A model generated the notes under the pieces. The model saw nothing but the letters and a program-made list of their open reading frames with translations. It made no database searches and had not been told where the DNA came from. Positions 17,437-63,165 of a DNA stretch of 64,000 bases are shown piece after piece; the stretch's first letter is position 1; the number at the start of each line of letters is the position of its first letter. Source of the DNA: Echinarachnius parma (Eukaryota > Echinodermata > Echinoidea > Clypeasteroida > Echinarachniidae); contig JBAMJV010001335.1 of assembly GCA_037951105.1 (NCBI GenBank), positions 62,001 to 126,000 on the forward strand. The letters run 5' to 3'. Position numbers and translations under genes: made by a program.

Positions 17437-20400
17437 CGATCCGATCTTCCGATTTTTTCTGCATGATCGGAAATCGGCAAAAACGGTCCGATCATGTATG
17501 ATCGGATCGTGATCGGCATGCCGATCCGATGATCGGTTACAGCACTAATATAAAGCTAATAATAACTTACATTTCAAAATCTTTTCAATCTACAGGAATC
17601 TGGTCCTGATTCCAAGCAAGTGAAAGAAGGTCCATGCAAATAAGGAGGGCTGGAAGCAATTGAGCTGATAAAACATCCACTGCATACAAAATTGTCTTTG
17701 TGATTATTCAAGAGGTGTTGATAAAACACTCCCATGTTAAACAAGTCATCTATGTGATCTTGAATTTCTCTATACCATAACAGTTTCTTACAATCTCCTT
17801 TATTACCAGGAATCTGGTCCTGATTCCAAGCAAGTGAAAGAGGGTGCAGGAGAACTAGATCAAGATGTGCTCTAGAAGCAATCGATCCTGAGGCATTGAT
17901 CAAACATCCACTGAAAAACAAATGGTCCATATGATCTTGACGTTTCTCTACCTAAACCTTTTCTTATCTAAAGCAAATACTTCAAAATTATTATTACATT
18001 TCAACATCTCAATCTACAGGAATCTGGTGCAGGAGAATCAGGAGCGCTAGAGCTCTATCAATTGAGAGGCGTTGACCAAACATCCACTGCATAACAAATG
18101 GTCCATGTGATCTTGAATTGCTCTTTGTACCATATCAGTTTCTTACAATCTCCTTTATCAACAGGAATCTGGTCCTGATTCCAAACAACTGGCACAAGGT
18201 GCAGGAACAAGGTGCTGGAGCACTAGAAGCAATTAATACAGCTCTAGGCATTGCTCAAACATCCCCTGCATAATAAATGGTCCATGTGATCTTGAAGTTT
18301 CTACATGTATCTTAACAGTTTCCTATTCTTTTCCACATCTTTCCTTTCTATAGGAATCTGGTCCTGATTCCAAGCAAGTGAAGGAGGGTGCACTAGAAGG
18401 TGCGCTAGAAACAATCGATCCTGAGGCATTGATCAAACATCCACTGCAAAACAAATGGTCCATGTGGTTCTTCAAAAACGACAAATCAAAATCCTGGACG
18501 GAAAACCTGAGAATAATCACAGCATTTGACACAGTAGAAGATTTTTGGGCGTAAGTACCAGTAGTCCTAGTCAGTTCATGACATAATTTGGGGGATAAAA
18601 TTCAGTCTGTATTTAAAATTGTATGTACCTTTACTCAAAGAAAAGGCCCATGTAGTTTTTCAAAAGTCTGAGTTAATGACTACTTAAATAATAGTTCTAA
18701 AAAGAATCAGTCTTGACACAAAAAATATTTTTGGCTTTTTAATGGCAATTAGTTTGTTTGATCTTAAATCTTTTTTGATACATTGCAGCTCTTTACAAAT
18801 GAAGATTTTTTTTAGCTCACAAAGTTGTTCATTGCTTTTTTTATTGACACGATTTCACCCAAATATGCTATGATAACATTCCCTATTATGCACAGGAAAT
18901 GTTTGTTTTGAATGATGATCACGGTAACTCTTGATATCTTCCTGTAAGTGACCTTACTGACTTGATTGATAGTATCTTTTATATTTGTTATAATGTGTTT
19001 TCCTACAGATTGTACAATCACATACAAGTCGCTAGCAAGTTGGCCACAGGATGCGATTACTCATTATTCAAGGTAAGAATTGTAGATATTTATAGATATT
19101 TTCAGATTAAACAACACCAATAATTGATGTACATGTATACATGTATGTAAGTTACAGGAATTGGATTTACAAGAATCAAGTTATTTAATGTAAAATTCAT
19201 TTCTAAATTAACACCAGCAAAGAAAATTGGGCTTTGCTGAGATTGAAGCCAAAACCTCAAAATTGCGAGACTGATGCCTTAACCATTGAACCACAAGGAC
19301 TCTTTGATGGTGGTGCATCCTAGAAGCCTTTTTTAATACTCATGCCATGGTGTCCCTATCGCTTATAGATCCATCTGGAAGATTCTGTCATGTTAATAAT
19401 AAAGTTTTTATCTTCATTGGATGATACTTTGAAAGATCAATGTCTGACAAACTTGCCTTTATTTAGATGATGCCAGAATTTAATCAGTCTAATTTATTCA
19501 AAGGGTTGTGGGTTACCAGCTTGGGACCTTCTTCCTGGCTTGAAGGAGAATCTTTGCCCCATTTAATTTGATTCTATTGGAGAGATTCTGTAGCTTGTAG
19601 GCAACTCCGGCCAGGCTGGATCGTTCTCGCTCAAGTTTGGCTGGTAAGTCTGTTCGGATCGTGACGCAGGGACGGGCAGGATTGCAGTCGGCAATCTAAC
19701 CACCCCCTCTGGCTCTGACGATGAGATGATCCAGGCTGGCCTCCCTCCGACCTGCTAACAGCTGGCCCTGTCTCGATGTCGGCAGCCGATGCGCGTTGAT
19801 GATCGGTATGGTGGCAGCTTCTTCAGGGGTGACATCAAGGAAATGGCGGATGGTGTCTCTGGTTGTCCTGATCACATCTTCGTCTTGGGTGTGTGGGATG
19901 CGGTAGAAGAAGAGATTCTGTTTGCGGTTGTGGATTTCGAGCAGTAACAGTTTTTCTTCTAACTCCTCTGTCTCTTTCTGCAACCTCTCGTATTTGTGGC
20001 AATTCCTCTTTCTCAGTGTGCATGATCCTTTCGGATGTGTAGCTCGCGCTGGTTTCGAGGTCAGCCACTTTGGGTTTTGTATTCAGCAAGTCCCCCTTTA
20101 TCGTGTTTAATTCGATGAGCGCGTGATCCAGCTTCGTGTTCACTTGTATCAAAAGGTTTGTAAACAAACTTTTCAACTCACTGATTGCTGCCGTAAACTC
20201 GTGTCTTTGTCCACCCCCTAGCTAGCAGCGTGAGAGGAGCGGGCAGTCGGGGTGTCTGTCCGCTGACGAGCTGCTTTTGGTCCTTTAGGGTTCTGCAGCT
20301 TTGGCGTTTTCGGAGGCATCGAGTTTGAAGGCATCGTTGAAGCAGATTTAGATCTTTTCGGGAACGGTTGATTTCTGAGATTATACAGGTTCATTCCCTG

Positions 20401-23400
20401 TTAGCTGACGGTGGTTGCAGTTGTGGATTTCAGGAAGTGAAAGTTTCTCTTCTAGCTCCTCCCTCTCCCTCAGAGCTATATTAGTGTCTTTTCGCAATGC
20501 GACGGAGTACTGAATACGCGGGATGTAAATCAGCTGTGACCGTCTCCGTACTCTGGCTACCGTCGTGATCTATTTGCAGTTTCGCAGTGAAGAATACGCG
20601 GAACGTCTCCTTGCTCGAGTGGCCAAGCGTGCTCATTGGCTGACCCCACTGACCTCTGGCTGACCCATTGAAGTAGGGCTTAACACACCGCTCCGTAGTC
20701 GCTGTACACACGACGCTATTTCGGCCAACTACCGTCGTAGGTTTGGACGCTACGCGGAAATTTTCGGTCTGAGTGCGACCCCCCGCTAAGATTAGCGTTG
20801 TAGAAGGGCCGCATCGCCGGTTGCGAAAACAGCCTATTGTCCACGAGCGTAAGAGGAGCGGCCTGTTCTGCCGTCCCAAGGAAAAAGGCAGTATCTACAC
20901 GATTCAGCATTTTCTAGAAACTGAGATATTGACCCTTTTGTGTTTTTGCCACAGCCGCTCGGAAATAATAAACTTGTGAAGATAACTTCAGTGTGTGATT
21001 AAAGGCTATATAGGGGTCTATTTTTCTTCATACATGAACAATTGAATTTTTCGTTTAATTTTGAGATTTTCATGAAAATGTAGATACTTTGGGAAAATCC
21101 TTGGTTCGTAACCGATTTCCCCAAGGAAAAAAGCAGTATCTACATAGAAATTCGGAGGGTGTTGAATTATGCCTTACGTTATGGATAAACCAATCGAAAA
21201 TGTTTCGGCATATATTCTGTATGTACTATTAACATACTTTAAAGGGAAAAAAGTTTGACTAATTAAAAAGCGCACTCTCTAGGCGAGTCACACTTTTCTT
21301 AAAAAAGGGACTTATTGGCCCATATTTCCGCAATGAAAGGAAATACGAAGCATGAATTGTATTCATTAACCACGCAAAAATGATTGTTTATACATTTGTT
21401 ATGAAAGTGTATGAGTTAAAGTGAAAACAAAACTTTGTTGATAAAGAGCGCCCTCTCTTATCAAGTCTGAAGTTACTTTAAATATGGAATAATGCATGTT
21501 ACAGTCTGTGCATTGTGTGAATGTGGCAGAGGTACACGCACTTTCATGCATACTTGAATAGCCTTTGTCACAAACTCTGCGCTTTATAGAAGAATGTTGG
21601 TCGTATTGCAAAATGCACTTATATGTTAAATTTGCTTCAATGTTTTGTGCTTCACAATTCATATAAGTAATGAAATTTGTTTATACAAGATATAACTATT
21701 ATAAATGCGCATTATTCATATTTTCTGCTTATAAATAATTTGTTTGTCTTGTGGCGAGACTAGCTGTGTAGATACTGCTTTTTTCCTTGGGGAAAGTGGA
21801 GGTTGACTGTAGATACTGCGTTTGAGGGTTGGGAAAAAATGGTGTTCCCAATTTTTTTTCAGAAAACTGAATGTATCACATGAAAGAGCATTGTTTATTG
21901 AGTATTTTTCTGCAAAAAAGTGAAAATCAACCAAAATGTCAGATACTGCGTTTTTCCTTGGGAGGGCAGTGTTGGGGTACTGATCTTGGTCCATTTGGAT
22001 AAACACTGCGCTATAGCGTTTTGGGTGATGTTGAGTTTGGTGGCATTTTAGAGGTGGATTTGATTCTTTTCTGGTATGATTGGTTTCTTAGATTGCATGA
22101 GCTCTTTCTCTAAATCAAAGTTGTTGCAGGCTTCAATATCCTTGAAATTTATGGTGTACAGTATATATCTCGCATTTCAGAAATTGGCGGGAGCTACAAC
22201 AAAATGCGTACGTAAGATGCTGTGTCGTGTTACTCAAAGTTTACTTCAATTTGCAATGTATTACAGTATAGCAAAATGCCCACGTAGAAAGTTGACCAGA
22301 ACAGAGATGTCGATATTTCAATCTATTTGGCAAATAAAATACAAAAGTAAAACATCAATTTACATTCTATACATTATAACAGGGACCGCGGAGAAGCAGC
22401 ATATGCCTTTGTTTGAGGCCCCAATACAGCAAATTCAATTAACAATTAAAATAATGACATGCAAACATATTGTAAATCACATTATTTTTAATCTAAAAAA
22501 AAATGTTTAGTGCTGCCTAATATTTGCAATACAAAAGGACCAATGTACTAAAATGTAAGTCAAATGGAGTCTTGACTTTCCACCCTATCCGGATCTTTTT
22601 TAAGGCAACAAATGAGAAGTAATACAACTTTTTTTGAAGTTTAATGATTATTTGAGAACGTATATTGTTATGATTTTGTTGTTTTGTTTGTTTTGTATGA
22701 CTAGGACGGAGTAAAGCCCATGTGGGAAGATGACCTCAACAAAGACGGTGGAAGGTGGCTCATCGGATTCGACAGAAAATCAAAACCACAGGACATCGAT
22801 AGGTGTTGGTTAGAAACGGTAAGTTGTCCGTAGTTATTAATTTTAAAAGATTTTAAATGGTACCTATATAGTAGCGACGTATTGATGTCATATTATTTTG
22901 TTAGTGCATACTTTATAGTTCTAAACAATTTTCCCTTTGATTTAGGCTTTTGGTACTGGGTTGAAGCGGGACGATTGCCTTCATAGCAACTGCCATGTAA
23001 CAAATGTCTTGCTTGCTTGCCTGGTATTGATTAGAACCTTTACCCATGGCAATGAATAGCTGTGAGGTCACAATTCAGCACTCTTTGATTGAGGATGAAA
23101 TATCCTTGGAACTGATCTCTTTAGGCGACTAGGCATTGATAAAAAAACTATTGGCTTTGCTGGGCCAGTACAACATTTTCTCTCCCAAATTTTGGTGGCC
23201 CAAAGCAAAAATGTAATGGTGCAAAAACTCATTTCATTTATCAACAATAATAATAGTAATAATAGACCAACATTTATATTGTGCCATCATTCTAGAAATC
23301 AACTGACCAGTGACTACCATTTGACATCCCACTTCCTTATTAATGTTAACTGCCGTTATGGATAAAGGTCATTATAAAAGGTGACAATTTTGTCAGTTTA

Positions 23401-26400
23401 AGAGTCTAGTTGCCTGATCGCTTGGACACCAAAACATTCATGACTTCAGTAAATTTGTACTTGGCCAAAGTTAACTTTTAATGGCCCCGGGCTAGATTTG
23501 TTGCAAACTCTTCATTATGCAGTGCTCGAAATTAGCATAGGCCCGCTGGCCCGGGGCCACTAAAAATTAGCTCCGAGCCACCAAATTTCATTGATCCTAA
23601 ATTCTACTGGACCGTTCGGGCAACCAAATTTAACAGAATTTGTTATGTTTTTCTTTGTTTGGGGGCACCAGATTAAGGTTTCGGGCCACTCAAAGTTGAA
23701 CAATCTTGTTTTACTTGCCCGACTGGGCCACAAGGCAAAAAGGTTCATTTCTAGCATTGCATTATGCCTATTTAAGTAAATGCTACTTGCCTAAGTACTA
23801 TCTATCATTCATTTATTCTTCTAAAAGATATGCTTTGTATGGTCAGAGTTAAAGTTAAAGACCTTCCCGTGCCAATGTTAGCACATAAGGCGGCGCCTAT
23901 CTCCGATTCATTAGCCCTAGGCCACACGTCTACTAAATGTAGCAAGAGCTACAGAAGGGGGCTAGTCCTCTGGTAACTCGTGTGATTAACTTTCCCTTCT
24001 CCATTCTATAAATGCCGAGTGCCTGGTTAGAAGGCAGAGGGTACCATTTTTAAAGTCTTTGGTATGACCCGGTATGGGTTCGAACCCGAGACCTCCCGTG
24101 CATGAGGCGGACAGTCTAACCACTAAGCCACCATGCTTGGTTAGAGAGAGCATTCAAAATCATTTTGATTTAGGGAACAGTGCTTTGGTCAACATCAGCA
24201 ATAAGGGAACCACAATTGCAGAGTTGACCTAGATAAGAACTTCTAGCTCAGTACAAAATTTACTTGTTTCAAAGGCCCCAACATTTCTGTTGACTCTGCC
24301 AAAATTTCTCTAATTTTTCCCAAAGTAGAGACGATTGTTTGTAATTTACAGATGGTCATATGTGGGGAGAAAGAAGCTGTCCATAAAACATAGTAACTAG
24401 ACTAGTTTATGTGCACTACATAACACAGCGCCAGTGTATAATTCTTGCAGTGTGCGAGGTGTTCGTTTGCCATAATTATGGCACTGAATATGAACTACCT
24501 TCAACAGCTTTACATTAATTATTTGTCTTGATTTCATTTTAATTTTAATTTTTGTCGTTGATTAGATGCTTCTGATGGTTGGGGAGTCATTTGACGATGA
24601 TTCGGACCTGGTGAATGGTGCTGTAGTGAACATCAGGAATAAGGGAAACAAGATCGCCATGTGGACGGGCAGCTGGAAGAAAGAGGAGTCAATAGTCAAT
24701 ATAGGGTAAGTCAAGCCTTGGCCTAGGCCTAACCCTAACCCTAACCCTACACTAACTTTCAATAGTCAATATAGGGTAAGTCAAACCTCCAAACTAACTT
24801 TCAATAGTCAACATAGGGTAAGTCAAACCTCCAAACTAACATTCAATAGTCAATATAGGATAGGTCAAACCTCCACACTAACTTTCAATAGTCAATATAG
24901 GGTAAGTCAAACCTCCAAACTAACTTTCAGTAGTCAATATAGGGTAGGTCAAACCTCCACACTAACTTTCAATAGTCAATATAGGGTAAGTCAATCCTCC
25001 AAACTAACTTTCAATAGTCAATATAGGGTACGTCAAACCTCCAAACTAACTTTCAATAGTCAATATAGGGTAAGTCAAATCTCCACTCTAACTTTCAATA
25101 GTCAATATAGGGTGAGTCAAACCTCCACACTAACTTTCAATAGTCAATATAGGGTAAGTCAATCCTCCACACTAACATTCAATAGTCAATATAGGGTAAG
25201 TCAAACCTCCAAACTAACTTTCAATAGTCAATATAGGATGAGTCAAACCTCCACACTAACTTTCAATAGTCAATATAGGGTAAGTCAATCCTCCAAACTA
25301 ACATTCAATAGTCAATATAGGGTAGGTCAAACCTCCAAACTAACTTTCAATAGTCAATATAGGGTAAGTCAAAACTCCAAACTAACTTTCAATAGTCAAT
25401 ATAGGGTAAGTCAAACCTCCAAACTAACTTTCAATAGTCAATATAGGGTAGGTCAAACCTCCAAACTAACATTCAATAGTCAATATAGGGTGAGTCAAAC
25501 CTCCACACTAACATTCAATAGTCAATATAGGGTAAGTCAAACCTCCAAACTAACTTCCAATAGTCAATATATGGTGAGTCAAACCTCCAAACTAACTTTC
25601 AATAGTCAAATCCTCCACACTAACTTTCAATAGTCAATATAGGGTAAGTCAATCCTCCACACTAACTTTCAATAGTCAATATAGGGTGAGTCAAACCTCC
25701 ACACTAACATTCAATAGTCAATATAGGGTAAGTCAAACCTCCAAACTAACTTCCAATAGTCAATATATGGTGAGTCAAACCTCCAAACTAACTTTCAATA
25801 GTCAAATCCTCCACACTAACTTTCAATAGTCAATATAGGGTAAGTCAATCCTCCACACTAACTTTCAATAGTCAATATAGGGTGAGTCAAACCTCCAAAC
25901 TAACTTTCAATAGTCAATATAGGGTAAGTCAAACCTCCAAACTAACATTCAATAGTCAATATAAGGAAAGTCAAACCTCCAAACTAACTTTCAATAGTCA
26001 ATATAGGGTGAGTCAAACCTCCAAACTAACTTTCAATAGTCAATATAGGGTAAGTCAAACCTCCAAACTAACATTCAATAGTCAATATAGGGTAAGTCAA
26101 ACCTCCAAACTAACATTCAATAGTCAATATAGGGTGAGTCAAGCCTCTACACTAACTTTCAATAGTCAATATAGGGTGAGTCAAACCTCCAAACTTACTT
26201 TCAATAGTCAATATAGGGAAAGTCAATCCTCCACACTAACTTTCAATAGTCAATATAGGGTACGTCAAACCTCCAAACTAACTTTCAATAGTCAATATAG
26301 GGTAAGTCAAATCTCCACTCTAACTTTCAATAGTCAATATAGGGTGAGTCAAACCTCCACACTAACTTTCAATAGTCAATATAGGGTAAGTCAATCCTCC

Positions 26401-29400
26401 ACACTAACTTTCAATAGTCAATATAGGGTAAGTCAATCCTCCAAACTAACATTCAATAGTCAATATAGGGTGAGTCAAACCTCCAAACTAACATTCAATA
26501 GTCAATACAGGGTAAGTCAATCCTCCACACTAACTTTCAATAGTCAATATAGGGTAAGTCAAACCTCCAAACTAACTTTCAATAGTCAATACAGGGTAAG
26601 TCAAACCTCCACACTAACTTTCAATAGTCAATATAGGGTGAGTCAAACCTCCAAACTAACTTTCAATAGTCAATATAGGGTAAGTCAAACCTCCAAACTA
26701 ACTTTCAATAGTCAATATAGGGTGAGTCAAACCTCCACACTAACTTTCAATAGTCAATATAGGGTCAGTCAAACCTCCAAACTAACTTTCAATAGTCAAT
26801 ATAGGGTAAGTCAATCCTCCACACTAACTTTCAATAGTCAATATAGGGAAAGTCAAACCTCCAAACTAACTTTCAATAGTCAATATAGGGTGAGTCAATC
26901 CTCCACACTAACATTCAATAGTCAATATAGGGTAAGTCAAACCTCCAAACTAACTTTCAATAGTCAATATAGGGTGAGTCAAACCTCCACACTAACTTTC
27001 AATAGTCAATATAGGGTGAGTCAAACCTCCAAACTAACTTTCAATAGTCAATACAGGGTGAGTCAAACCTCCAAACTAAATTTCAATAGTCAATATAGGG
27101 TAAGTCAAACCTCCAAACTTACTTTCAATAGTCAATATAGGGTAAGTCAATCCTCCACACTAACTTTCAATAGTCAATATAGGGTAAGTCAAACCTCCAA
27201 ACTAACCTTCTATAGTCAATATAGGGTGAGTTAAACCTCCAAACTAACTTTCAATAGTCAATATAGGGTAAGTCAAACCTCCAAACTAACTTTCAATAGT
27301 CAATGTAGGGTGAGTTAAACCTCCAAACTAACATTCAATAGTCAATATAGGGTGAGTCAAACCTACAAACTAACTTTCAATAGTCAATATAGGGTGAGTC
27401 AAACCTCCAAACTAACATTCAATAGTCAATATAGGGTAAGTCAAACCTCCACACTAACTTTCAATATAGTCAATATAGGGTAAGTCAAGCCTCTACACTA
27501 ACTTTCAATAGTCAATATAGGGTAAGTCAAGCCTAGGCCTAGGCCTTACCCTCACCCTAACCCTTACCCTACACTAACTTTCAATAGTCAATATAGGGTG
27601 AGTCAAACCTCCACACTAACTTTCAATAGTCAATATAGGGTCAGTCAAACCTCCAAACTAACTTTCAATAGTCAATATAGGGTAAGTCAATCCTCCACAC
27701 TAACTTTCAATAGTCAATATAGGGAAAGTCAAACCTCCAAACTAACTTTCAATAGTCAATATAGGGTGAGTCAATCCTCCACACTAACATTCAATAGTCA
27801 ATATAGGGTAAGTCAAACCTCCAAACTAACTTTCAATAGTCAATATAGGGTGAGTCAAACCTCCACACTAACTTTCAATAGTCAATATAGGGTGAGTCAA
27901 ACCTCCAAACTAACTTTCAATAGTCAATACAGGGTGAGTCAAACCTCCAAACTAAATTTCAATAGTCAATATAGGGTAAGTCAAACCTCCAAACTTACTT
28001 TCAATAGTCAATATAGGGTAAGTCAATCCTCCACACTAACTTTCAATAGTCAATATAGGGTAAGTCAAACCTCCAAACTAACCTTCTATAGTCAATATAG
28101 GGTGAGTTAAACCTCCAAACTAACTTTCAATAGTCAATATAGGGTAAGTCAAACCTCCAAACTAACTTTCAATAGTCAATGTAGGGTGAGTTAAACCTCC
28201 AAACTAACATTCAATAGTCAATATAGGGTGAGTCAAACCTACAAACTAACTTTCAATAGTCAATATAGGGTGAGTCAAACCTCCAAACTAACATTCAATA
28301 GTCAATATAGGGTAAGTCAAACCTCCACACTAACTTTCAATATAGTCAATATAGGGTAAGTCAAGCCTCTACACTAACTTTCAATAGTCAATATAGGGTA
28401 AGTCAAGCCTAGGCCTAGGCCTTACCCTCACCCTAACCCTTACCCTACACTAACTTTCAATAGTCAATATAGGGTGAGTTAAGACTCCACACTAACTTTC
28501 AAATATCAATATAGGGTGAGTCAAACCTCCAAACTAACTTTCAATAGTCAATATAGGGTGAGTCAAACCTCCACACTAACTTTCAATAGTCAATATAGGG
28601 TGAGTCAAACCTTCAAACTAACTTTCAATAGTCAATATAGGGTAAGTCAAAGCTCCACACTAACATTCAATAGTCAATATAGGGTAAGTCAATACTCCAC
28701 ACTAACTTTCAATAGTCAATATTATAGGGTAAGTCAAACCTCCAAACTAACATTCAATAGTCAATGTAGGGTGAGTCAAACCTCCAAACTAACTTTCAAT
28801 AGTCAATATAGGGTAAGTCAAACCTCCAAACTAACTTTCAATAGTCAGGGTGAGTCAAACCTCCACACTAACATTCAATAGTCAATATAGGGTAAGTCAA
28901 TCCTCCACACTAACTTTCAATAGTCTATATAGGGTGAGTCAAACCTCCAAACTAACTTTCAATAGTCAATATAGGGTAAGTCAAACCTCCACACTAACAT
29001 TCAATAGTCAATATAGGGTAAGTCAAACCTCCAAACTAACTTTCAATAGTCAATATAGGGTAAGTCAAACCTCCACACTAACATTCAATAGTCAATATAG
29101 GGTAAGTCAAACCTCCAAACTAACTTTCAATAGTCAATATAGGGTAAGTCAAACCTCCAAACTAACTTTCAATAGTCAGGGTGAGTCAAACCTCCACACT
29201 AACATTCAATAGTCAATATAGGGTAAGTCAAGCCTAGGCCTAGGCCTTACCCTCACCCTAACCCTTACCCTACACTAACTTTCAATAGTCAATATAGGGT
29301 GAGTTAAGACTCCACACTAACTTTCAAATATCAATATAGGGTGAGTCAAACCTCCACACTAACTTTCAATAGTCAATATAGGGTAGGTCAAACCTCCAAA

Positions 29401-31970
29401 CTAACTTTCAATAGTCAATATAGGGTGAGTCAAATCTCCACTCTAACTTTCAATAGTCAATATAGGGTAAGTCAAACCTCCAAACTAACTTTCAATAGTC
29501 AATATAGGGTAAGTCAAACCTCCACACTTACGTTCAATAGTCAGGGTGAGTCAAACCTCCAAACTAACTTTCAATAGTCAATGTAGGGTGAGTCAAGCCT
29601 CCACACTAACTTTCAATAGTCAATATAGGGCAAGTCAAACCTCCAAAAAGTAAATTCATAAATTGTCTAATTTTGCTTGCCTGCACAGACAATTGACTTG
29701 CCTGTTTACTTCTAGACGAGACTTCCATACAGGAACTACATTATTCTCTTGTAGTTGACCAATAATTTAGTTAACGATGAGGCAACAAAACTAGGTCATT
29801 TATGAAATTTGACTTGCCCGACTTCCATTTTGACTTGCCCTGGGCAATAGGGCAAGTGCTTCAAGGGATCTAGTAACTTTGTTGACATGTGCAAAAAGTG
29901 ATGAATGGTTGATGCAATGTATATTGTTGTTATCTCATATGTCCACAGGGTATTGTGTGAATATTTCAAGTCGAATGGACATTGCATGGCTAAGTAATGA
30001 GCGAAAATGCAAAGTGATATTCACTAACTCGCTGCACTCACTTTGTACACGATAAGAAAAACTCCACCAGAGTTTTTCTTATCTGAATACTTTGATTGTA
30101 CATATCTTTGTAACGAAAGGGAAATTAAAAAAAACGAAACCTGTCCCATGATTTTATTGTTAATACGAATACAACAAGGTATGAGGGAACCGCTAGAATT
30201 CAAATTTTATTTTGAGGATTTGGACAATGTTACTAAGTCCCTTTAAATGTCAAGTCCTTGGTAAGTCCTGTCATATCTAATCCTGTTTTGAGCAGAATGC
30301 TAAAAAGTGCTCCACCATCTCATAGACTTCCCTGGACAGGCGGTGAAAGCCTTTATGTGAACAATCTTCTCAATGCCCGTGAGTCGCTTGGAAGGAATGC
30401 TCCCCAGGGAGTGGAGATGGTGCACACAATGTGTGCTGGTTTGCATTGTATCCTACGACCGGGGTAATAATATCATTGTTAAGCGCCTAGAGATGATTAT
30501 CAATCATATTAGGCGTGATATAAATCAAGAATATTATTATTATTATTATTATCAAGTTGAACTGCTAGAATTTCTATTATCTACTACGGATGGAGATTTT
30601 CTTTGCAGGTATTTGACAGAATAACATTGATTTATTTCTAAATTCATTGTACCTCTTTGTTATTCTTCTTCAGAAAAAAATTCAAGGACAGATTAGGACT
30701 ACCATCCAAGTACGCAATAGGTTTTGAGGTGAGTCATACATCTAGCTTCATTTTATCTACATTTCTTCTGCACCAAAATTTAACCTTATTTTGTTAGAAA
30801 AGGTACTGAAAGAAGCCTAAGAACCTTGTTAATGTTTCTTAGTGGAAAGTCCTGAAAAAGTCATAGTATTATGCAATGCTCCTCATTAAATGTATTTAAA
30901 TCCTCACTGAAAAAGTATTTAATTATGTGTTACGATTAGGTGCATGTATATATCTTGTATAATCGATATACTTATTTATTGTGTACTTTGATTTTTGTAT
31001 ATGAATATATGAATATATAACACTACAGTAAAAATATGCCTCGATGTTCATCCACAGTAATGGCAGAGGGTGGGCGGGCAGGGGTGAGGAGGGGGGGGGG
31101 GGATGCTACGACAAAGATTAATTCAAATAATTTGTTCGTTCAATTGTTCTAGTCATTACAGTTAACAAAGGGATCTGCCTCGACAGGATAGTAATATCCT
31201 TTGCAGATCCCCCACTGTCCACACCACATGTATAACTTGTATTTGTATGTACAGTATGTAATTTGCTGAAATTTGTATATTTTGTGTTTTTAGAGATGTG
31301 AAATAAAATTGAAATTGAAAATTCTACCTGTAGAGGTTATGGAAAGTTATGGAATTTGACTTCAAATATAAAGTGTAGGAAACCTGGTGTAACGTGATTA
31401 CTCATGCAAGCCCAGCTTGGAAAGTAAACCCCATTAAAAAAAGAATAAAAACAAATCAAAAATCAAAATGTTTACCTTAAAGGGATCTAGTAACTTTGTT
31501 GACATGTGCAAAAAGTGATGCGTGGTTAATAAAATCATATGTCTATTGGTGTGATCTGATATGTCCACAAAGTAATGTGTGAAAATTTCACGTTAATTGG
31601 ATGTTTTTTAGCCGATAAATGAGCAAACATGGCAAGCGATATTCACTTACTCATTGCACTTCTTTGCACACAGTTTAAAACGTTCCCGTAGATATTTTAA
31701 CATCCGAACACTTCAAATGTAAATATCTTTTGAACAAAATGGAAATTTGAAAAACCAAAACCTGTTCCATGCTTTTATTGTTAATATGAGTACAACTAGG
31801 TATAAGAGAACCACTAGAGTTCCAAGTAAATATTTAGGATTTGGACAATGTTACTAAATCCCTTTAAATATATTTTGTTTGTTTCTTTTCTTGTCTTCTC
31901 TTGTTTTCAGGCACACAAAGACACGATAACGAAGACAGGATCCATGGCCAAGAGTCGATACACCGTATGA
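14977..31970 (+). CDS. eIF4E: Eukaryotic translation initiation factor 4E, spliced gene
   Basis: Seven coding exons: 14977-15009, 18354-18550, 19009-19072, 22705-22818, 24566-24705, 30674-30728 and 31911-31970. Every junction is GT-AG and phases match, giving 220 residues against 217 in human. The protein binds the mRNA 5' cap and recruits eIF4G in the cytoplasm. Seen: HPLQNKW and WFFKNDKSKSW (39-59), TVEDFWALYNHI (71-82), GCDYSLFKDG, PMWEDD (103-108), GGRWLI, DRCWLET, GESFDD and WTGSW. Cap-stacking tryptophans are Trp59 and Trp105 with Glu106; the eIF4G/4E-BP-facing Trp is Trp76; Ser212 in TGSMAKSR aligns with the phosphorylated Ser209 of human eIF4E. The N-terminus is short and variable as usual. 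Introns hold duplicated exon fragments, a hairpin element, LINE debris and a splice-donor satellite. Confidence 0.97.
16910..17547. mobile_element. 638-bp hAT-type foldback element (long hairpin) in eIF4E intron 1
   Basis: Ends TAGTGCTGTAAC and GTTACAGCACTA, flanked by the 8-bp duplication ATATAAAG (16902-16909 and 17548-17555). Almost the whole element is an inverted repeat: the arms share CGGATCGG-type motifs, the stretch from CCCAAAAAACA to TACAAAATTA, and TGAGCTTAGTCCCATG, with a loop of about 40 bp near 17190. The right arm carries a roughly 40-bp poly-T run (17395-17434). Confidence 0.9.
17596..17700 (+). pseudogene. Degenerate copy A of eIF4E exon 2
   Basis: Acceptor CAATCTACAG then codons ESGPDSKQVKEG as in the true exon, followed by a premature TAA at codon 16. 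The KHPL region is still recognisable (AAACATCCACTGCAT), but similarity to the exon is lost after that. Confidence 0.85.
17810..17925 (+). pseudogene. Degenerate copy B of eIF4E exon 2
   Basis: Acceptor TTATTACCAG then ESGPDSKQVKEGAG in frame; a TAG follows at codon 22. Retains GATCCTGAGGCATTGATCAA and CATCCACTG close to the functional exon, in a shifted frame. Similarity ends at AAATGGTCCAT. Confidence 0.88.
18020..18110 (+). pseudogene. Degenerate copy C of eIF4E exon 2
   Basis: Acceptor CAATCTACAG then ESGAGESGALELYQLRGVDQ in frame and a TAA. Shorter than the others because part of the 5' codons is deleted. Retains AACATCCACTGCATAACAAA. Confidence 0.83.
18165..18285 (+). pseudogene. Degenerate copy D of eIF4E exon 2
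   Basis: Acceptor TTATCAACAG then ESGPDSKQLAQGAG in frame and a TAA at codon 24. Retains AACATCCCCTGCATAATAAA. The functional exon copy follows at 18354. Confidence 0.85.
18354..18550 (+). CDS. eIF4E: eIF4E exon 2 (functional copy)
   Basis: 197 nt, acceptor TTCTATAG|GAATCT, donor GGGC|GTAAGT. Encodes residues 12-76 with the first cap-binding Trp59 and dorsal Trp76. It is the fifth and only complete member of a series of five exon copies; the others lie at 17596, 17810, 18020 and 18165. It contains an internal near-repeat GGTGCACTAGAAGGTGCGCT. Confidence 0.96.
19009..19072 (+). CDS. eIF4E: eIF4E exon 3
   Basis: 64 nt, acceptor TTCCTACAG|ATTGTAC, donor TTCAAG|GTAAGA. Encodes LYNHIQVASKLATGCDYSLF plus K, matching the LYNHIQ...GCDYSLFK block of eIF4E. 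Confidence 0.96.
19240..19322 (-). mobile_element. Degenerate tRNA-like sequence / SINE head
   Basis: Minus strand CTTGTGGTTCAATGGTTAAG resembles a tRNA D-arm/A box, and GGCTTCAATCTC a decayed B box, 33 bases apart. Lies in eIF4E intron 3. Confidence 0.5.
19690..20333 (-). pseudogene. LINE ORF1 remnant (coiled coil plus RRM-like)
   Basis: Minus strand begins ATGCCTTCAAACTCGATGCC (MPSNSMPPKTPKLQNPKGPK) and continues through a coiled-coil region (LDHALIELNTIKGDLLNTK) and EKLLLLEIHNRKQNLFFYRI, the start of an L1 ORF1-type RNA-binding domain, then HRLP. A stop (TAG near 20220) and a frameshift near 19980 break it. It sits in eIF4E intron 3. No matching ORF2 lies next to it. Confidence 0.75.
20870..21965. 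repeat. Recurrent CCCAAGGAAAAAAGCAGTATC motif family, partly inverted
   Basis: The motif CAAGGAAAAAAGCAGTATCT occurs near 20875 and 21120 on the plus strand and in reverse near 21770 and 21940, with a partial one at 21806. The pair 21118 and 21797 forms ends of a 680-bp unit. No coding sequence is recognised here. Confidence 0.6.
22012..22115 (-). pseudogene. Second, diverged copy of the LINE ORF1 start region
   Basis: On the plus strand, AGCGTTTTGGGTGATGTTGA and the following 90 bases align with 20297-20395 (GGCGTTTTCGGAGGCATCGA and onward), roughly 70 percent alike. The two copies are about 1.7 kb apart and enclose unrelated repeats. Confidence 0.5.
22705..22818 (+). CDS. eIF4E: eIF4E exon 4
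   Basis: 114 nt, phase 0 at both ends, donor GAAACG|GTAAGT. Encodes DGVKPMWEDDLNKDGGRWLI then GFDRKSKPQDIDRCWLET. Contains the second cap-stacking Trp105 and the cap-recognising Glu106. Confidence 0.97.
23520..23759. mobile_element. 240-bp hAT-type MITE in eIF4E intron 4
   Basis: Inverted ends CAGTGCTCGAAATTAGC and GCTAGCATTG-type, flanked by a CATTATG duplication (23513-23519 and 23760-23766). Interior contains GGCCCGGGGCCAC and TTGCCCGACTGGGCCA. Similar in style to the element at 54077-54418. Confidence 0.75.
23846..24142 (-). mobile_element. tRNA-derived SINE
   Basis: Read on the minus strand from 24137: GGTGGCTTAGTGGTTAGACT is an A-box-like tRNA 5' half and GGGTTCGAACCCATACC a B box, spaced as in a tRNA. 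The rest, to about 23846, is the SINE body. Lies in eIF4E intron 4. Not a functional tRNA gene because the acceptor stem does not close. Confidence 0.7.
24566..24705 (+). CDS. eIF4E: eIF4E exon 5
   Basis: 140 nt, acceptor GTTGATTAG|ATGCTT, donor AATATAGG|GTAAGT. Encodes MLLMVGESFDDDSDLVNGAV, VNIRNKGNKIAMWTGSWKK and EESIVNIG. The last 16 exon bases plus the first roughly 26 intron bases form the founding unit of the tandem array that follows. Confidence 0.97.
24690..29646 (+). repeat. 42-bp tandem array derived from the eIF4E exon 5 splice donor
   Basis: About 118 units of 42 bp fill most of intron 5. The unit core is CAATATAGGGTAAGTC, identical to the real exon 5 end and donor; most units keep GTAAGT or GTGAGT, a minority have GTAGGT, GTACGT, GTCAGT or GGAAAG. 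Four (CCCTAA)-like blocks interrupt it at about 24729-24750, 27541-27573, 28417-28449 and 29242-29274. One unit frame is free of stops, giving a 14-residue repeat open for 450 codons, but this is not the exon frame and is not considered coding. Confidence 0.97.
26721..28472 (+). repeat. 876-bp higher-order duplication inside the 42-bp array
   Basis: Segment starting at 26721 recurs at 27597 with the same pattern of unit variants and the same telomere-like block (27531 and 28407), offset 876 bp. A third telomere-like block follows at 29232 (offset 825 from the second) with the same flanking variant GAGTTAAGACTCC. Smaller duplication: the CAATAGTCAAATCCTCC variant at 25600 and 25796, offset 196 bp. 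Confidence 0.9.
29861..30246 (+). mobile_element. TTAA-flanked MITE, copy 2 (eIF4E intron 5)
   Basis: Same family as the copy at 3370, very similar along its whole length. The left flank is TCAA instead of TTAA. It lies just beyond the splice-donor array. Confidence 0.85.
30285..30552 (+). mobile_element. SINE-like repeat with (ATT)n tail, copy 1
   Basis: Contains TGGAAGGAATGCTCCCCAGG, GCATTGTATCCTACGACCGG, GGTAATAATA and CGCCTAGAGATGATTATCAA, ending in (TTA)n. Related copies are at 55540-55745 (minus) and 56650-56832 (plus), with tail fragments at 55262-55352 and 6515-6600. In eIF4E intron 5. Confidence 0.7.
30674..30728 (+). CDS. eIF4E: eIF4E exon 6
   Basis: 55 nt, acceptor TTCTTCAG|AAAAAA, donor TTTGAG|GTGAGT. 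Encodes KKFKDRLGLPSKYAIGFE, matching the eIF4E 'ERLGLPP...IGY' block. It must be joined to exon 5 over an intron of almost 6 kb made mostly of copies of the exon 5 donor. Confidence 0.96.
31477..31867 (+). mobile_element. TTAA-flanked MITE, copy 3 (eIF4E intron 6)
   Basis: A more diverged copy with intact TTAA on both sides. Its right end is 44 bp before the acceptor AG of the last eIF4E exon, so it probably supplies or displaces the branch-point region. Confidence 0.85.
31911..31970 (+). CDS. eIF4E: eIF4E exon 7, C-terminus
   Basis: Acceptor TTGTTTTCAG|GCACAC. Encodes AHKDTITKTGSMAKSRYTV and stop TGA. Ser212 is the equivalent of the regulated C-terminal serine. A TTAA-type MITE ends 44 bp upstream of this exon, and a 119-bp tandem duplication of the exon's 3' part lies in the 3' UTR. 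Confidence 0.97.
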   Translation, partial: AHKDTITKTGSMAKSRYTV

Positions 31971-32161
31971 TACAGGCACAACTGACACCCCCTACCAACA
32001 CCCTATATCCATCTGTCCATCATTGCTCCTACACTGCTCCAGCGTACACGAAGACAGGATCCATGGCCAAGAGTCGATACACCGTATGATACAGGCACAA
32101 CTGACACCCCTACCAACACCCTATATCCATCTGTCCATCGTAGCTCCTACACTGCTCCAGT
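31929..32161 (+). repeat. Tandem duplication of the eIF4E terminal exon end and 3' UTR
   Basis: Two 119-bp-spaced copies (31929-32047 and 32048-32161), nearly identical. Each contains the codons TKTGSMAKSRYTV and stop, then ACAGGCACAACTGACACCCC. The second copy lies entirely in the 3' UTR. Similarity stops after ACACTGCTCCAG. Confidence 0.92.
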
Positions 32162-33605: not shown

Positions 33606-33858
33606 ATTATAAAATACATAGAACCTTGACTTGTGAAATAGTCTCGCTATCAGGTACCTCGATAGATAGAACCTTGACTTGTGAAATAGTCTCGCTATCA
33701 GGTACCTCGATAGATAGAACCTTGACTTGTGAAATAGTCTCGCTATCAGGTACCTCGATAGATAGAACCTTGACTTGTGAAATAGTCTCGCTATCAGGTA
33801 CCTCGATAGATAGAACCTTGACTTGTGAAATAGTCTCGCTATCAGGTACCTCGATATA
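33606..33858 (+). repeat. 48-bp tandem repeat, five near-identical copies
   Basis: Unit contains GAACCTTGACTTGTGAAATA and GTCTCGCTATCAGGTACCTC. Starts at 33621, 33669, 33717, 33765 and 33813. It is nested in a MITE-like unit with ends CAGTGAAACTTTGTTATAAC and ATAAAGAGGTTCCACTGT (33523-33893). It is open in all three of the frames that show long ORFs, but this follows from 48 being divisible by three. Confidence 0.93.
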
Positions 33859-39369: not shown

Positions 39370-40530
39370 GATGGATCTTCGACTGCGCGCAGTCGAAAAT
39401 GATGCCTCCGCCATTACGCAATTTATTTATGTCAAGCCCAAATCAACATGTACACAGAATTAATTCTGTCAACTTAATTTTGATGGTACTCTGTCTTTTA
39501 GATCTTGACGTATCACAATTATGAGCTATAAGTGACCTTGACCTTTGCCCTCATGACCCCAAAATCTAATGACTACAATTGCTCCCTATTATACATTCAG
39601 GTATCAAGTTGGATTGAAATCTGATATTCAGTTCTTGAGATTTCCAATCTCAAGCTACTTTTACATATAATGAGCCCTGTGACCTTTGACCTTTGACCTC
39701 ATGACCCCCAAAATCTAATCAGTTCATTGGCTCTCCAAGGAACATACATGTACCAAGTTTGGTCAGAATCTGTAAATCTCTTCTTGAGATAACGCGATCA
39801 CGAGCTATTTTTGCATATATAATGAGCTCTATGACCTTTGACCTTTGACCTCTGACCTCATGACCCCAAAATCTAATCAGATCATTGGCCCCCACAAGAT
39901 ACATACATGTACCAAGTTTGGTCAGAATCAGTCAATCCGTACTTGAGATAACGCGATCACGAGCTATTTTTGCAATATAATGAGCTCTGTGACCTTTGAC
40001 CTTTGACCTCATGACCCCAAAATCTAATCAGATCATCGGCCCCCCAAGATACATACATGTACCAAGTTTGGTCAGAATCTGTCAATCCCTTCTTGAGATA
40101 ACGCGATCACGAGCTATTTTTGCATATATAATGAGCTCTGTGACCTTTGACCTTTGACCTCATGACCCCAAAATTTAATCAGATCATTGGCCCCCCAAGA
40201 TACATATATGACCCAAGTTTGGTTAAAATCTGTCAATCGGTTCTTGAGATAACGCGATCACGAGCTATTTTTGCATATATAATGAGCTCTGTGACCTTTG
40301 ACCTTTGACCTCATGACCCCAAAATCTAATCAGATCATTGGCCCCCCAAGATACATACATGACCCAAGTTTGGTGAAAATCCGTTAATCGGTTCTTGAGA
40401 TAACGCGATCACGAGAACGGGACGTACGTACGTACGGACGGACGGACGGACGTACGTACGGACGGACGGACAACCCGAAAACATAATGCCTCCGGCTACT
40501 TCGTTCCGGCTACTTCGTTGCGGAGGCATA
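39370..40530. mobile_element. Repeat element with five 151-bp units and GGACGGAC/GTACGTAC tail
   Basis: Begins with the palindrome TCGACTGCGCGCAGTCGA and TGATGCCTCCGCC, ends with a GACGGACG/CGTACGTA tract (about 40423-40470) and TTGCGGAGGCATAA. Units with TGACCTTTGACCTTTGACC start at 39681, 39833, 39991, 40142 and 40293 and carry GAGATAACGCGATCACGAGC. A second end of the family is at 1139-1199 (GCGGAGGCATAATTTTTGAC, CTGCGCGCAGTCGAAGATCC). A degenerate relative may lie at 11310-11450. Confidence 0.82.
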
Positions 40531-58332: not shown

Positions 58333-60863
58333 GGGCCCCGTTTCATAAATCTTTCGCAATTGTTGTAAGTGTCCAATTATTGTAACTAGAAATTGCGCGC
58401 TCGGGGGGTCGCGCAGCCGAGCACATGTATCCCCCGAACCAATTGCATTGCACTTTTGTGGGTTGTAATATTGTGAACTGAACAAGTTTGGTGGTGTACG
58501 TTGTTCTACTAGGCTGGCAGTAGCCTTTGGGCAAGGCCTCGCGCGCTGTTTGTCCTCCGAGCAGGGTCTGATTAATAGACAAGGCGATGTGCGCTTACAG
58601 CAGTGATCGCTGGACTGAGCCGCGTCAGCGGCGAGGCCTTGCGGAGCTCATTAATATTGGCATATGTAACAGGCTCTTACATTATCTCGCACAGACACAG
58701 TCTCTCCCGGTCTCTCCCGCACCGGTCCCGTCTTATTTATTTCAAGAAAACAACGCTGGCGTTCGTACGTGTACAGCGCATATACGTACGCATGCATGCA
58801 ATTCGCAATTCAAGCGATCCAGTTCTAAAAAAAAATGGTTAAAATGCAGTGCATTTGTGGCCCCAAATCCTCTTAAATAAACCAGATTCCTAAATCAATT
58901 ACTTTTTTGCATTTCTAAAATGATTTCTACGGAAAAATGATATCAAACTGTTCAGATTTACCTCGATTACAAACGCACTGCATTTTAACAATTTTTGTTA
59001 GAACTGGATCGCCAGCGCGGTAGGCGATCCGGCGAGTTACCTTCTCACATACACAGAGCTGATTGTGTGATTGTATGAGTTATGTGTACATGTACGCTAT
59101 ACGATCTCAGAACCGATTCTTCTCGGAACCGAGACATGGGTATGGAATCAGAATCGACTCCAAGCTGGGGCAGAACCGCCCAAGCCTACTTCATACCAAA
59201 TAAGAAAATAATCGGACAAGAATTCGGACCTGTAGAGCGGTCACAAGGTAATCTTAACTATTTCTTTATATCATGGTTACCATGGCAACCATGAATCCGC
59301 CCCACACCAAAATCAATAGGCTTCATCCTCTTTCCTTAATACACCTTCATACCAAATAAGAAAATGATCGGACAAGAACTCGGACCTGTAGAGCGTTCAC
59401 ATGGTAATCTTAACTATTTCTTTATATCATGGTTATCATGGTTACCATGGCAACCAGGACTCTGCCCCACACCAAAATCAATAGGCTTCATCCTCTTTCC
59501 TTAATACACCTTCATACCAAATTAGAAAATGATCAGACAAGAACTCGGATCTATAGAGCGTTCACAAGGTAATCTTAACTATTTCTTTATATCATTGTTA
59601 CCATGGCAACCAGGACTCCGCCCCACACCAAAATCAAAAAGCTTCATCCTCTTTCCTTAATACACCTTCATACCAAATTAGAAAATGATCGGACAAGAAC
59701 TCGGACCTGTAGAGCGTTCACAAGGTAATCTTAACTATTTCTTTATATCATGGTTACCATGGCAACCAGGACTCCGCCCCACACCAAAATCAATAGGCTT
59801 CATCCTCTTTCCTTAAGACACCTTCATACCAAATTAGAAAATGATGGACAAGAACTCGGACCTGTAGAGCGTTCACAAGGTAATCTTAACTATTTCTTTA
59901 TATCATGGTTACCATGGCAACCAGGACTCCGCCCCACACCAAAATCTAAAGGCTTCATCCTCTTTCCTTAAGACACCTTCATACCAAATTAGAAAATGAT
60001 CAGACAAGAACTCGGACCTGTAGAGCGTTCACAAGGTAATATTAACTATTTATTTATATCATGGTTACCATGGCAACCAGGACCGCGCCCCACACCAAAA
60101 TCAATAGGCTTCATCCTCTTTCCTTAATACACCTTCATACCAAATTAGAAAATGATCGGACAAGAACTCGGACCTGTAGAGCGTTCACAAGGTAATCTTA
60201 ACTATTTCTTTATATCATGGTTACCATGGCAACCAGGGCTCCGCCCCACACCAAAATCAATAGGCTTCATCCTCTTTCCTTAATACACCTTCATACCAAA
60301 TTAGAAAATGATCGGACAAGAACTCGGACCTGTAGAGCGTTCACAAGGTAATCTTAACTATTTCTTTATATCATGGTTACCATGGCAACCAGGACTCCGC
60401 CCCACACCAAAATCAATAGGCTTCATCCTCTTTCCTTAATACACCTTCATACCAAATTAGAAAATGATCGGACAAGAACTCGGACCTGTAGAGCGTTCAC
60501 AAGGTAATCTTAACTATTTCTTTATATCATGGTTACCATGGCAACCAGGACTCCGCCCCACACCAAAATCAATAGGCTTCATCCTCTTTCCTTAATACAC
60601 CTTCATACCAAATTAGAAAATGAACGGACAAGAACTCGGACCTGTAGAGCGTTCACAAGAAAATCTCTGCGGCGGACGCGGCGGACGCGGCGGCGGCGGC
60701 GGCGCGACGAGGCCAAATCCATAGTATCCCCCGAAGTGGTTCGGGGGATACAACTAGTAGATCACTACAGCCAATCAGCATAGAGCTTTGCAGCTGTTGC
60801 CATGGTAATTACAATAATTGGACACTTACAACAATTGCAAAAGTTTTATGAAACGAGGCCCTG
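58333..60863. mobile_element. 2.5-kb nonautonomous TIR element containing an X-box repeat array
   Basis: Terminal inverted repeats of about 57 bp: GGGCCCCGTTTCATAAATCT, CGCAATTGTTGTAAGTGTCC, then AATTATTGTAA, repeated in reverse at 60800-60863. Inside are a second foldback (58812-59015, sharing GCGATCCAGTTCTAA and AAAATGCAGTG), a GC-rich segment and ten 156-bp repeats. No transposase ORF seen. Confidence 0.83.
59190..60665 (+). repeat. 156-bp tandem repeat, ten copies, nearly all with an RFX X-box-like palindrome
   Basis: GACAAGAACTCGGACCTGTA-type phase marks fall at 59215, 59371, 59536, 59692, 59846, 60003, 60159, 60315, 60471 and 60627. Spacing is 156 bp with small indels. Units contain GGTTACCATGGCAACC, which fits the RFX X-box consensus GTNRCC N0-3 RGYAAC; the last unit is cut before that point. 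Copies are very alike, so homogenisation is recent. Confidence 0.92.
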
Positions 60864-61915: not shown

Positions 61916-62639
61916 GACATGAGATCAGGTTGTTGCCTTATTCATACATTTTTGTTGCCAGGAACAACAGCTGATGCAGATCTCATTCTAAATCTGATTT
62001 TCTTGTGGTCTGGGCAGGAAGTGATATCATATTAAATCAGCAGTTTTACAAACTTACATTGTACTTATTATGCTGGTTTGCAACATATTACCATAGATTA
62101 CAAGCACACTAAACAGTTGCACTTGTTAAAAGAACTGAACATACCCCAAATTCAACAAATTGGTAGCTATAAAGTTTATAGCTACCAAGTTGTTGAATTT
62201 GGGGTATGTACAGTTGTATAACAAACTATCAGGAAAAACATCAGAAGCACAAGTTATTTTTTTTTTAGATATAGATCTATGTAATATACACAAGATAATA
62301 TTTGAACTACAGAAGAGATATAGTTTTGCCAAATAGCAAAAAAAAAAATTTTCATATCCTTTCATTCACCCACCCATCCCTCGACCATGGTTCTGATCTG
62401 AATGTACTTATGCTTCAAATATGTACGTCTTGGTAAACCTGTTCCCTACGAGATTCAGAAATCCCCATGCATATACTTTGTACATAGCACACTCGGTTCC
62501 CGTAGTCAAGGGGTTAAGTTAGTTGTTTGTTGGATCAGATTCAGACCCTGTAGTGTGTCGTGGGCTTAATACTATACCCACTGAATCAGGATTGGTTCCT
62601 AGATTGGATGATTCAAAGGGAAAGTGATCCTATCTCATC

Positions 62640-63165
62640 CGAATCATTCCTAGATCAGCTGGGTCAGGGGCAGTTGGGAGTAAGTCTGGCATATCAGGGG
62701 AAGGGGAACTCTAGTGATATCATTTGCCTGGGACATACATTGGAATATCCAAATCATTCCTAGATCAGCTGGGTCAGGGGCAGTTGGGAGTACGTCTGGC
62801 ATATCAGGGGAAGGGGAACTCTAGTGATATCATTTGCCTGGGACATACATTGGAATATCCAAATCATTCCTAGATCAGCTGGGTCAGGGGCAGTTGGGAG
62901 TCAATCTGACATATCAGGGGAAGGGGAACTCTAGTGATATCATTTGCCTGGGACATACATTGGAATATCCAAATCATTCCTGGATCAGCTGGGTCAGGGG
63001 CAGTTGGGAGTACGTCTGGCATATCAGGGGAAGGGGAACTCTAGTGATATCATTTGCCTGGGACATACATTGGAATATCCAAATCATTCCTGGATCAGCT
63101 GGGTCAGGGGCAGTTGGGAGTACGTCTGGCATATCGGGGGGAACGGGAACTACCCCAGTTATAAT
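62640..63165 (+). repeat. 110-bp tandem repeat, five copies
   Basis: CATTCCTAGATCAGCTGGGT starts at 62645, 62755, 62865, 62975 and 63085 (the last two with TGGATC). Copies are almost identical. Flanked on the right by (CAAA)n stretches at 63349-63384 and 63590-63625. Confidence 0.93.

Follow-up and report, generated by a model that had tools for sequence, protein, structure and literature searches.

Why should an intron of a housekeeping gene begin with more than a hundred tandem copies of the exon border that precedes it, where did these copies come from, and do they serve the gene in any way? The question is raised by a locus of the echinoderm Echinarachnius parma, contained in a window of 64,000 nucleotides (contig JBAMJV010001335.1, positions 62,001 to 126,000 of the forward strand), which is the whole stretch of DNA that was analysed and to which all coordinates refer. 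The gene on the + strand of the window encodes eIF4E, as a preliminary description had recognized. Its exons were placed by tblastn with a human eIF4E query, and then by splice borders (AG/GT) and frame. The gene model within the window comprises exons 2-7, which together encode 209 residues and end in a stop codon; no placement was obtained for exon 1. The joined protein matches the Pfam family IF4E (PF01652) with E=4e-58, and its best match in the PDB is the eIF4E chain 1ipb (E=2.9e-85, query residues 7-209). Two loci of eIF4E paralogues (L049, L050) yielded distant partial matches only and carry no information on the array. The exons and the intron concerned are as follows.

18354..18550, + strand: eIF4E exon 2, authentic copy (AG/GT borders, frame, matches of the joined exons to Pfam and PDB)
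19009..19072, + strand: eIF4E exon 3 (borders and frame)
22705..22818, + strand: eIF4E exon 4 (borders and frame)
24566..24705, + strand: eIF4E exon 5, whose last 17 bases agree letter by letter with the consensus of the exon-derived unit columns
24706..30673, + strand: eIF4E intron 5, 5968 nt, phase 2, 83% array
30674..30728, + strand: eIF4E exon 6 (borders and frame)
31911..31970, + strand: eIF4E exon 7, including the stop codon (borders and frame)

The array starts within exon 5, includes the true donor as its first unit, and contains a higher-order duplication.

24690..29647, + strand: 42-bp boundary minisatellite of 116 units, including the true donor (reading, TRF, unit decomposition)
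24703..24711, + strand: true donor, AGG/GTAAGT, in unit 1
26697..28479, + strand: higher-order duplication, 907 bp exact, lag 876 (26697-27603 and 27573-28479)

TRF calls a repeat at 24751-29647 with a period of 42, 118.0 copies and 84% matches; read from the exon, the array begins at 24690 and is 4958 bp long, and its decomposition gives 116 units, in good agreement with the roughly 118 units at 24690..29646 first described. In this decomposition, which counts the real boundary, 103 units are 42 bp long and the others measure 76 bp (three units), 37 bp (three), 28 bp (two), 44 bp (two), and 70, 45 and 38 bp (one each), and there are 55 distinct sequences among the 116. The three 37-bp units are gapped in the unit alignment, their actual letters being AGGGTGAGT. 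The unit consensus reads CTTTCAATAGTCAATATAGG to the left of the boundary and GTAAGTCAAACCTCCAAACTAA to its right, and the 17 bases on the left (TCAATAG onward) repeat the end of exon 5 without a difference. Each standard unit consists of these 17 exon bases, the donor and intron sequence, i.e., it spans the exon 5/intron 5 boundary, as had been described, except that the exon part had been given as 16 bases.

The source of the repeat was sought with a 25-base core of the unit, which was searched in the 1.2-Gb assembly with up to three mismatches and with the reversed pattern as a control. The core has 110 matches in the assembly, all forward and none reverse, and the control has none; the same count on the window is also 110, all of them inside the array in intron 5. 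There is thus no copy of the unit core elsewhere in the assembly, and the repeat most likely arose in place. The earlier view, with the true donor as unit 1 and the exon 5/intron 5 boundary as the origin of the repeat, is upheld, and within the assembly this repeat occurs in eIF4E only. The end of exon 5 encodes ...SIVNIG, which aligns with ...AVTHIG of the best PDB chain. As the final IG residues align with vertebrate eIF4E, the exon end is explained by protein descent, which favours the exon as the source of the repeat, and we infer that copying proceeded from the exon into the array. The opposite history, in which a 42-bp satellite from elsewhere landed in intron 5 and then overwrote the exon end, is very improbable. 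Gene conversion from a satellite into its flanks is possible in principle, and units 2 onward contain CTAACTTT, a stretch not traced to a source, but both the lack of any core copy within three mismatches outside the array in the assembly and the alignment of the exon's IG end with vertebrate eIF4E speak against this history.

Two exact repeats inside the array, one of 907 bp at a lag of 876 and one of 230 bp at a lag of 196 with its first copy at 25472, show that blocks of units have been duplicated recently. The 907-bp copy goes beyond the preliminary description, as do the telomere-like blocks discussed below. One assembled allele of the array was found in the assembly. An exact copy of this length might also indicate that the array length is, wholly or partly, an assembly artefact, and the assembly seems to hold unmerged haplotypes, with many identical paired hits on different contigs. 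However, the 55 distinct units are not what a simple collapse or repetition would leave, their variants being interspersed, and a shorter array would remain the same thing, so that an artefact is an unlikely explanation.

How much of the donor has survived in the copies? GT is kept in 107 of the 116 units, the nine losses being due to deletion in two units and to substitution in seven, and exact GTAAGT or GTGAGT (GTRAGT) is present in 99 units and missing from 17, which confirms that most units retain a donor of this form. On the + strand, GGTRAGT is found 99 times in the 4958 bp of the array (20 per kb) versus 7 times in the other 59 kb of the window (0.12 per kb), and on the minus strand of the array it does not occur. 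The predicted pairing with U1 is -9.7 kcal/mol for the true donor, -9.7 or -9.8 kcal/mol for the common decoys, and between -6.1 and -10.5 kcal/mol for the other donors of the gene. Decoys and true donor are thus equal in predicted U1 pairing, and nothing in the 9-mer itself favours the first donor. When the downstream GTRAGT donors were joined to exon 6 by script, a stop directly after exon 5 resulted in 98 of 98 cases, and in every case it falls in the same codon, lying across or just behind the exon 5 border. The full protein is therefore predicted from the first donor only, as the preliminary description had argued from an immediate TAA. Nonsense-mediated decay is expected for mRNAs with a stop upstream of the last exon junction; since the stop in question lies upstream of the junction of exons 6 and 7, mRNAs made from a downstream donor would be expected to undergo it.

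These features could be taken as signs of a function, and action of the array as a U1 sink, a splicing brake or an agent of telescripting had in fact been put forward as possible. The U1-binding sites would slow or tune the splicing of intron 5 or block early polyadenylation, and the output of eIF4E would follow the array length. The presence of 99 GTRAGT sites in 5 kb, most of them with a predicted U1 pairing equal to that of the true donor, speaks for such a role, and the immediate stop upon use of a downstream site is what a productivity brake would need. However, variation is as free in the donor columns as elsewhere in the unit: the mean divergence by column is 8.8% in the donor hexamer, 1.4% in the exon-derived part and 6.6% in the remaining intron part (Mann-Whitney p=0.41 for donor columns versus the rest, p=0.42 for exon-derived columns versus the remaining intron part). 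Variation in the donor is mostly A/G at +3, and both letters fit U1. There is hence no sign of selection keeping the donors, though the test is weak; some constraint on the exon-derived columns is possible, their mean divergence being lower, with a difference that is not significant. Furthermore, intron 5 contains no AATAAA and a single ATTAAA, at 30124 and outside the array, leaving little for telescripting to suppress, and the comparable 'mirages' of amphioxus have been reported not to disturb splicing (PMC3087553, PMC3902484). Neither selection on the donors (p=0.41) nor telescripting (no AATAAA in intron 5) is thus supported, and a selected role of the array finds no support; a functional decoy is improbable. 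Donor arrays as an enriched class of genomic sequence were also considered, and rejected, because closely spaced GGTRAGT triplets number 835 genome-wide (486 forward, 349 reverse) versus 2021 for the backward-read control pattern. As far as the sequence allows a judgement, the array is most likely a neutral by-product rather than a switch, and would be removed together with intron 5.

An additional element was found inside some of the units.

24714..24751, + strand: stretch of unit 1 with a telomere-like block, containing TAACCCTAACCCTAACCCTA
27531..27572, + strand: telomere-like block stretch of a 76-bp unit
about 28405-28448 and 29233-29274, + strand: further telomere-like block stretches

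Four units, unit 1 among them, hold such a block (CCCTAA type, 28 or 34 bp) between the donor and CTACACTAA, whose flanking letters recur in three further units with no block between them (CAAGCCTCTACACTAA), a pattern that its gain or loss would produce. In the three later blocks (27531, 28405, 29233), the donor core TAGGGTAAG recurs as its exact reverse complement, and the pairing of these blocks with the core is stronger than that of mononucleotide shuffles (fraction <= observed 0.004-0.008). A hairpin between block and donor was considered and rejected, as the block of unit 1 does not pair with the donor better than shuffles (0.10 and 0.33) and the true donor is predicted to be largely paired with or without its block. 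Folding gave z-scores of -0.20 (unit 1), 0.15 (a regular unit), -2.44 (27502-27600) and -1.29 (24686-24800).

Tandem repeats across exon-intron boundaries have been described in amphioxus genes under the name of mirages (PMC3087553, PMC3902484). According to Ebner et al. 2010 (PMC3087553), a study of amphioxus globins that refers to work of 2002 on Adh3, Adh3 units measure 10-72 bp and globin units 150-160 bp, BflGb6 carries 6 units in one haplotype and 3 in another and BflGb9 has one duplicate, RT-PCR suggested that mirages do not interfere with splicing, and a role in intron gain was proposed. A 2013 paper (PMC3902484) deals with boundary repeats of 2-7 copies in lancelet PGBD5 and cites troponin C. 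Allelic and somatic instability is likewise cited for the Adh3 mirages. The eIF4E array resembles the amphioxus mirages (Adh3, BflGb6, BflGb9, troponin C, PGBD5) in being made of minisatellite-like boundary copies inside one gene. Mirages are found on the donor or the acceptor side, their copies lie beside their own boundary in the same orientation, and many but not all of them carry splice signals; the eIF4E copies lie on the donor side, beside their own boundary and in one orientation (110 forward, 0 reverse), and carry GT in 107 and GTRAGT in 99 of 116 units. Whereas mirages have been reported from cephalochordates, the host of the eIF4E array is an echinoderm, and its 116 units in 5 kb stand against 6 and 3 units in BflGb6, one duplicate in BflGb9 and 2-7 copies in PGBD5. 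The mitochondrial contig of the assembly likewise points to an echinoderm: its COX1 is read well with AGR as Ser and ATA as Ile, whereas AAA as Asn (MNNMSFWL), which here distinguishes the echinoderm code from those of hemichordates, is supported by a single codon. The tRNA cluster T-P-Q-N-L-A-W-C-V-M-D-Y-G-L and, behind COX1, tRNA-Arg with an ND4L-like frame next to it correspond to the echinoid/holothuroid arrangement. Amphioxus as the source of the DNA was considered and is disfavoured by this mitochondrial evidence; a search for the GFP family, with no positive control, gave no match.

Two further systems invite comparison. The minisatellite of human IFI6 (G1P3, 6-16) has a 12-nt unit in about 26 copies. 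It supplies several splice donors (Turri et al. 1995, as cited in PMC4526556), and two downstream repeat units serve as donors and give isoforms (PMC4526556). In eIF4E, in contrast, an immediate stop is predicted for 98 of 98 downstream donors. Introners and other intron-creating mobile elements place copies with splice signals in many unrelated genes. The eIF4E array likewise is a copied sequence with splice signals but, unlike introners, its unit was found in this gene only. Among the entries listed by a literature search, at the level of titles and abstract openings and with most subscription papers outside its scope, there was no case in eIF4E and no echinoderm boundary repeat; for sea urchins, they included a paper on short tandem repeats of the Sp185/333 family (PMC5103432). 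No further boundary-repeat case appears in the excerpts of PMC3039753 and PMC3045353, and those of PMC3618361, PMC2915984 and PMC2572611 cite Turri 1995 only and add no further case. The initial statement that no such minisatellite had been described thus holds for eIF4E within this literature, but not for the kind of repeat: new are the echinoderm host and the length, and the kind itself, although seldom noticed, has already been described.

Taken together, it is highly probable that the array represents a mirage-type boundary minisatellite, which arose by duplication in place, grew, is spliced from the first donor and is neutral. Its position, the make-up of its units, its uniqueness in the assembly, the stops and the block duplications can be read from the letters themselves. 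A segment that comprised the final 17 bases of exon 5, the donor and an adjoining piece of intron 5 would have been duplicated in place, the copies would have multiplied through unequal exchange or slippage, and block duplications of 196 and 876 bp would have followed. The array would be transcribed within intron 5 and, in vivo, most likely spliced out from the first donor, presumably without any function of its own, and any use of a downstream GTRAGT would produce an mRNA with an early stop that is expected to undergo nonsense-mediated decay.

The donor of exon 5 is not the only exon edge that has been copied in this gene.

17553..18297, + strand: upstream of exon 2, a tandem series of degenerate copies of its acceptor boundary

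The acceptor boundary of exon 2, AG/GAATCTGGT, occurs five times, in degenerate copies at 17594, 17808, 18018 and 18163 and as the real boundary at 18352, with a spacing of 145-214 bp, and these copies are a second boundary repeat in eIF4E. A weak exon-5-like fragment lies upstream of exon 5 (24134-24220, E=0.13), and the end of exon 7 is copied downstream of that exon (32036-32086, protein match with E=4.9, the letters repeating exon 7). Other tandem arrays of the window are located at 39532-40415 (151-bp unit), 59189-60666 (156 bp), 62637-63151 (110 bp) and 33614-33856 (48 bp).

Beyond eIF4E, the chaperonin family (PF00118) was analysed, which has 63 matches, 30 of which were cut out as loci (L051-L080) and 29 used, L069 being left out as incomplete. 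With a local direct copy defined by a lag of 40-600 bp, the exon match is overlapped by such a copy in 18 of these 29 loci, and the contigs concerned are 10 of the 13 tested. The loci are not independent of each other, some being haplotype or paralogue duplicates. Identical paired matches of families on the contigs C3025/C4211, C713/C1347 and others suggest unmerged haplotypes. Local direct copies cover 25% of the exon-match bases versus 4-15% per 150-bp bin at a distance of 600-1500 bp, and inverted copies over the exons amount to 0%. It has to be considered that exon conservation keeps one copy readable, so that exons are favoured in the detection of copies. The coverage at the two match edges is 9% and 27%, the loci not being turned to the gene strand; edge coverage is not above that of the whole exon, which argues against a special targeting of exon edges. 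In L070 the copy includes the donor signal and in L071 the acceptor signal. Of the copies that overlap chaperonin exons, 16 of 29 have a lag of 164-210 bp, versus 11 of 43 of those that do not; the occurrence of this lag outside exons is a further point against a special targeting of exon edges. In 93.5 kb, comprising the window minus the 42-bp array and three other stretches, 143 direct local copies were counted versus 8 inverted ones, a count in which the other tandem arrays figure several times. By eye, neighbouring partial exon copies were noticed among 150 matches of the Ras family (C7135, C9199/C3158) and 138 matches of kinases (C12035, C7072). At C7135:53709-54286, three Ras-family matches start at the same profile position within 600 bp, and this locus is a probable acceptor-side boundary repeat.

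From the further copies in chaperonin genes, boundary copying seems to be frequent in this genome, and it could contribute to intron gain. A more far-reaching proposal, which is possible but rather doubtful at present, would be that local tandem copying of exon edges is pervasive in this echinoderm lineage, often with the copies about 165-210 bp apart, close to the length of one nucleosome repeat, that it affects a large share of housekeeping exons and supplies decoy splice sites and partial exons, and that it occasionally runs away into a 5-kb satellite, as in eIF4E.

With this array, boundary minisatellites are described not only in amphioxus but also in what is probably a new phylum for them. 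It also offers a natural and extreme test of donor choice, with more than 90 decoys that have the predicted U1 pairing of the true donor and lie directly behind it in a housekeeping gene; if the joining of exons 5 and 6 is clean, exon proximity and context outweigh U1 complementarity. The most interesting lead is that copies of exon edges are apparently abundant in this genome. Pervasive copying of this kind, if true, would continually supply new introns and alternative exons.
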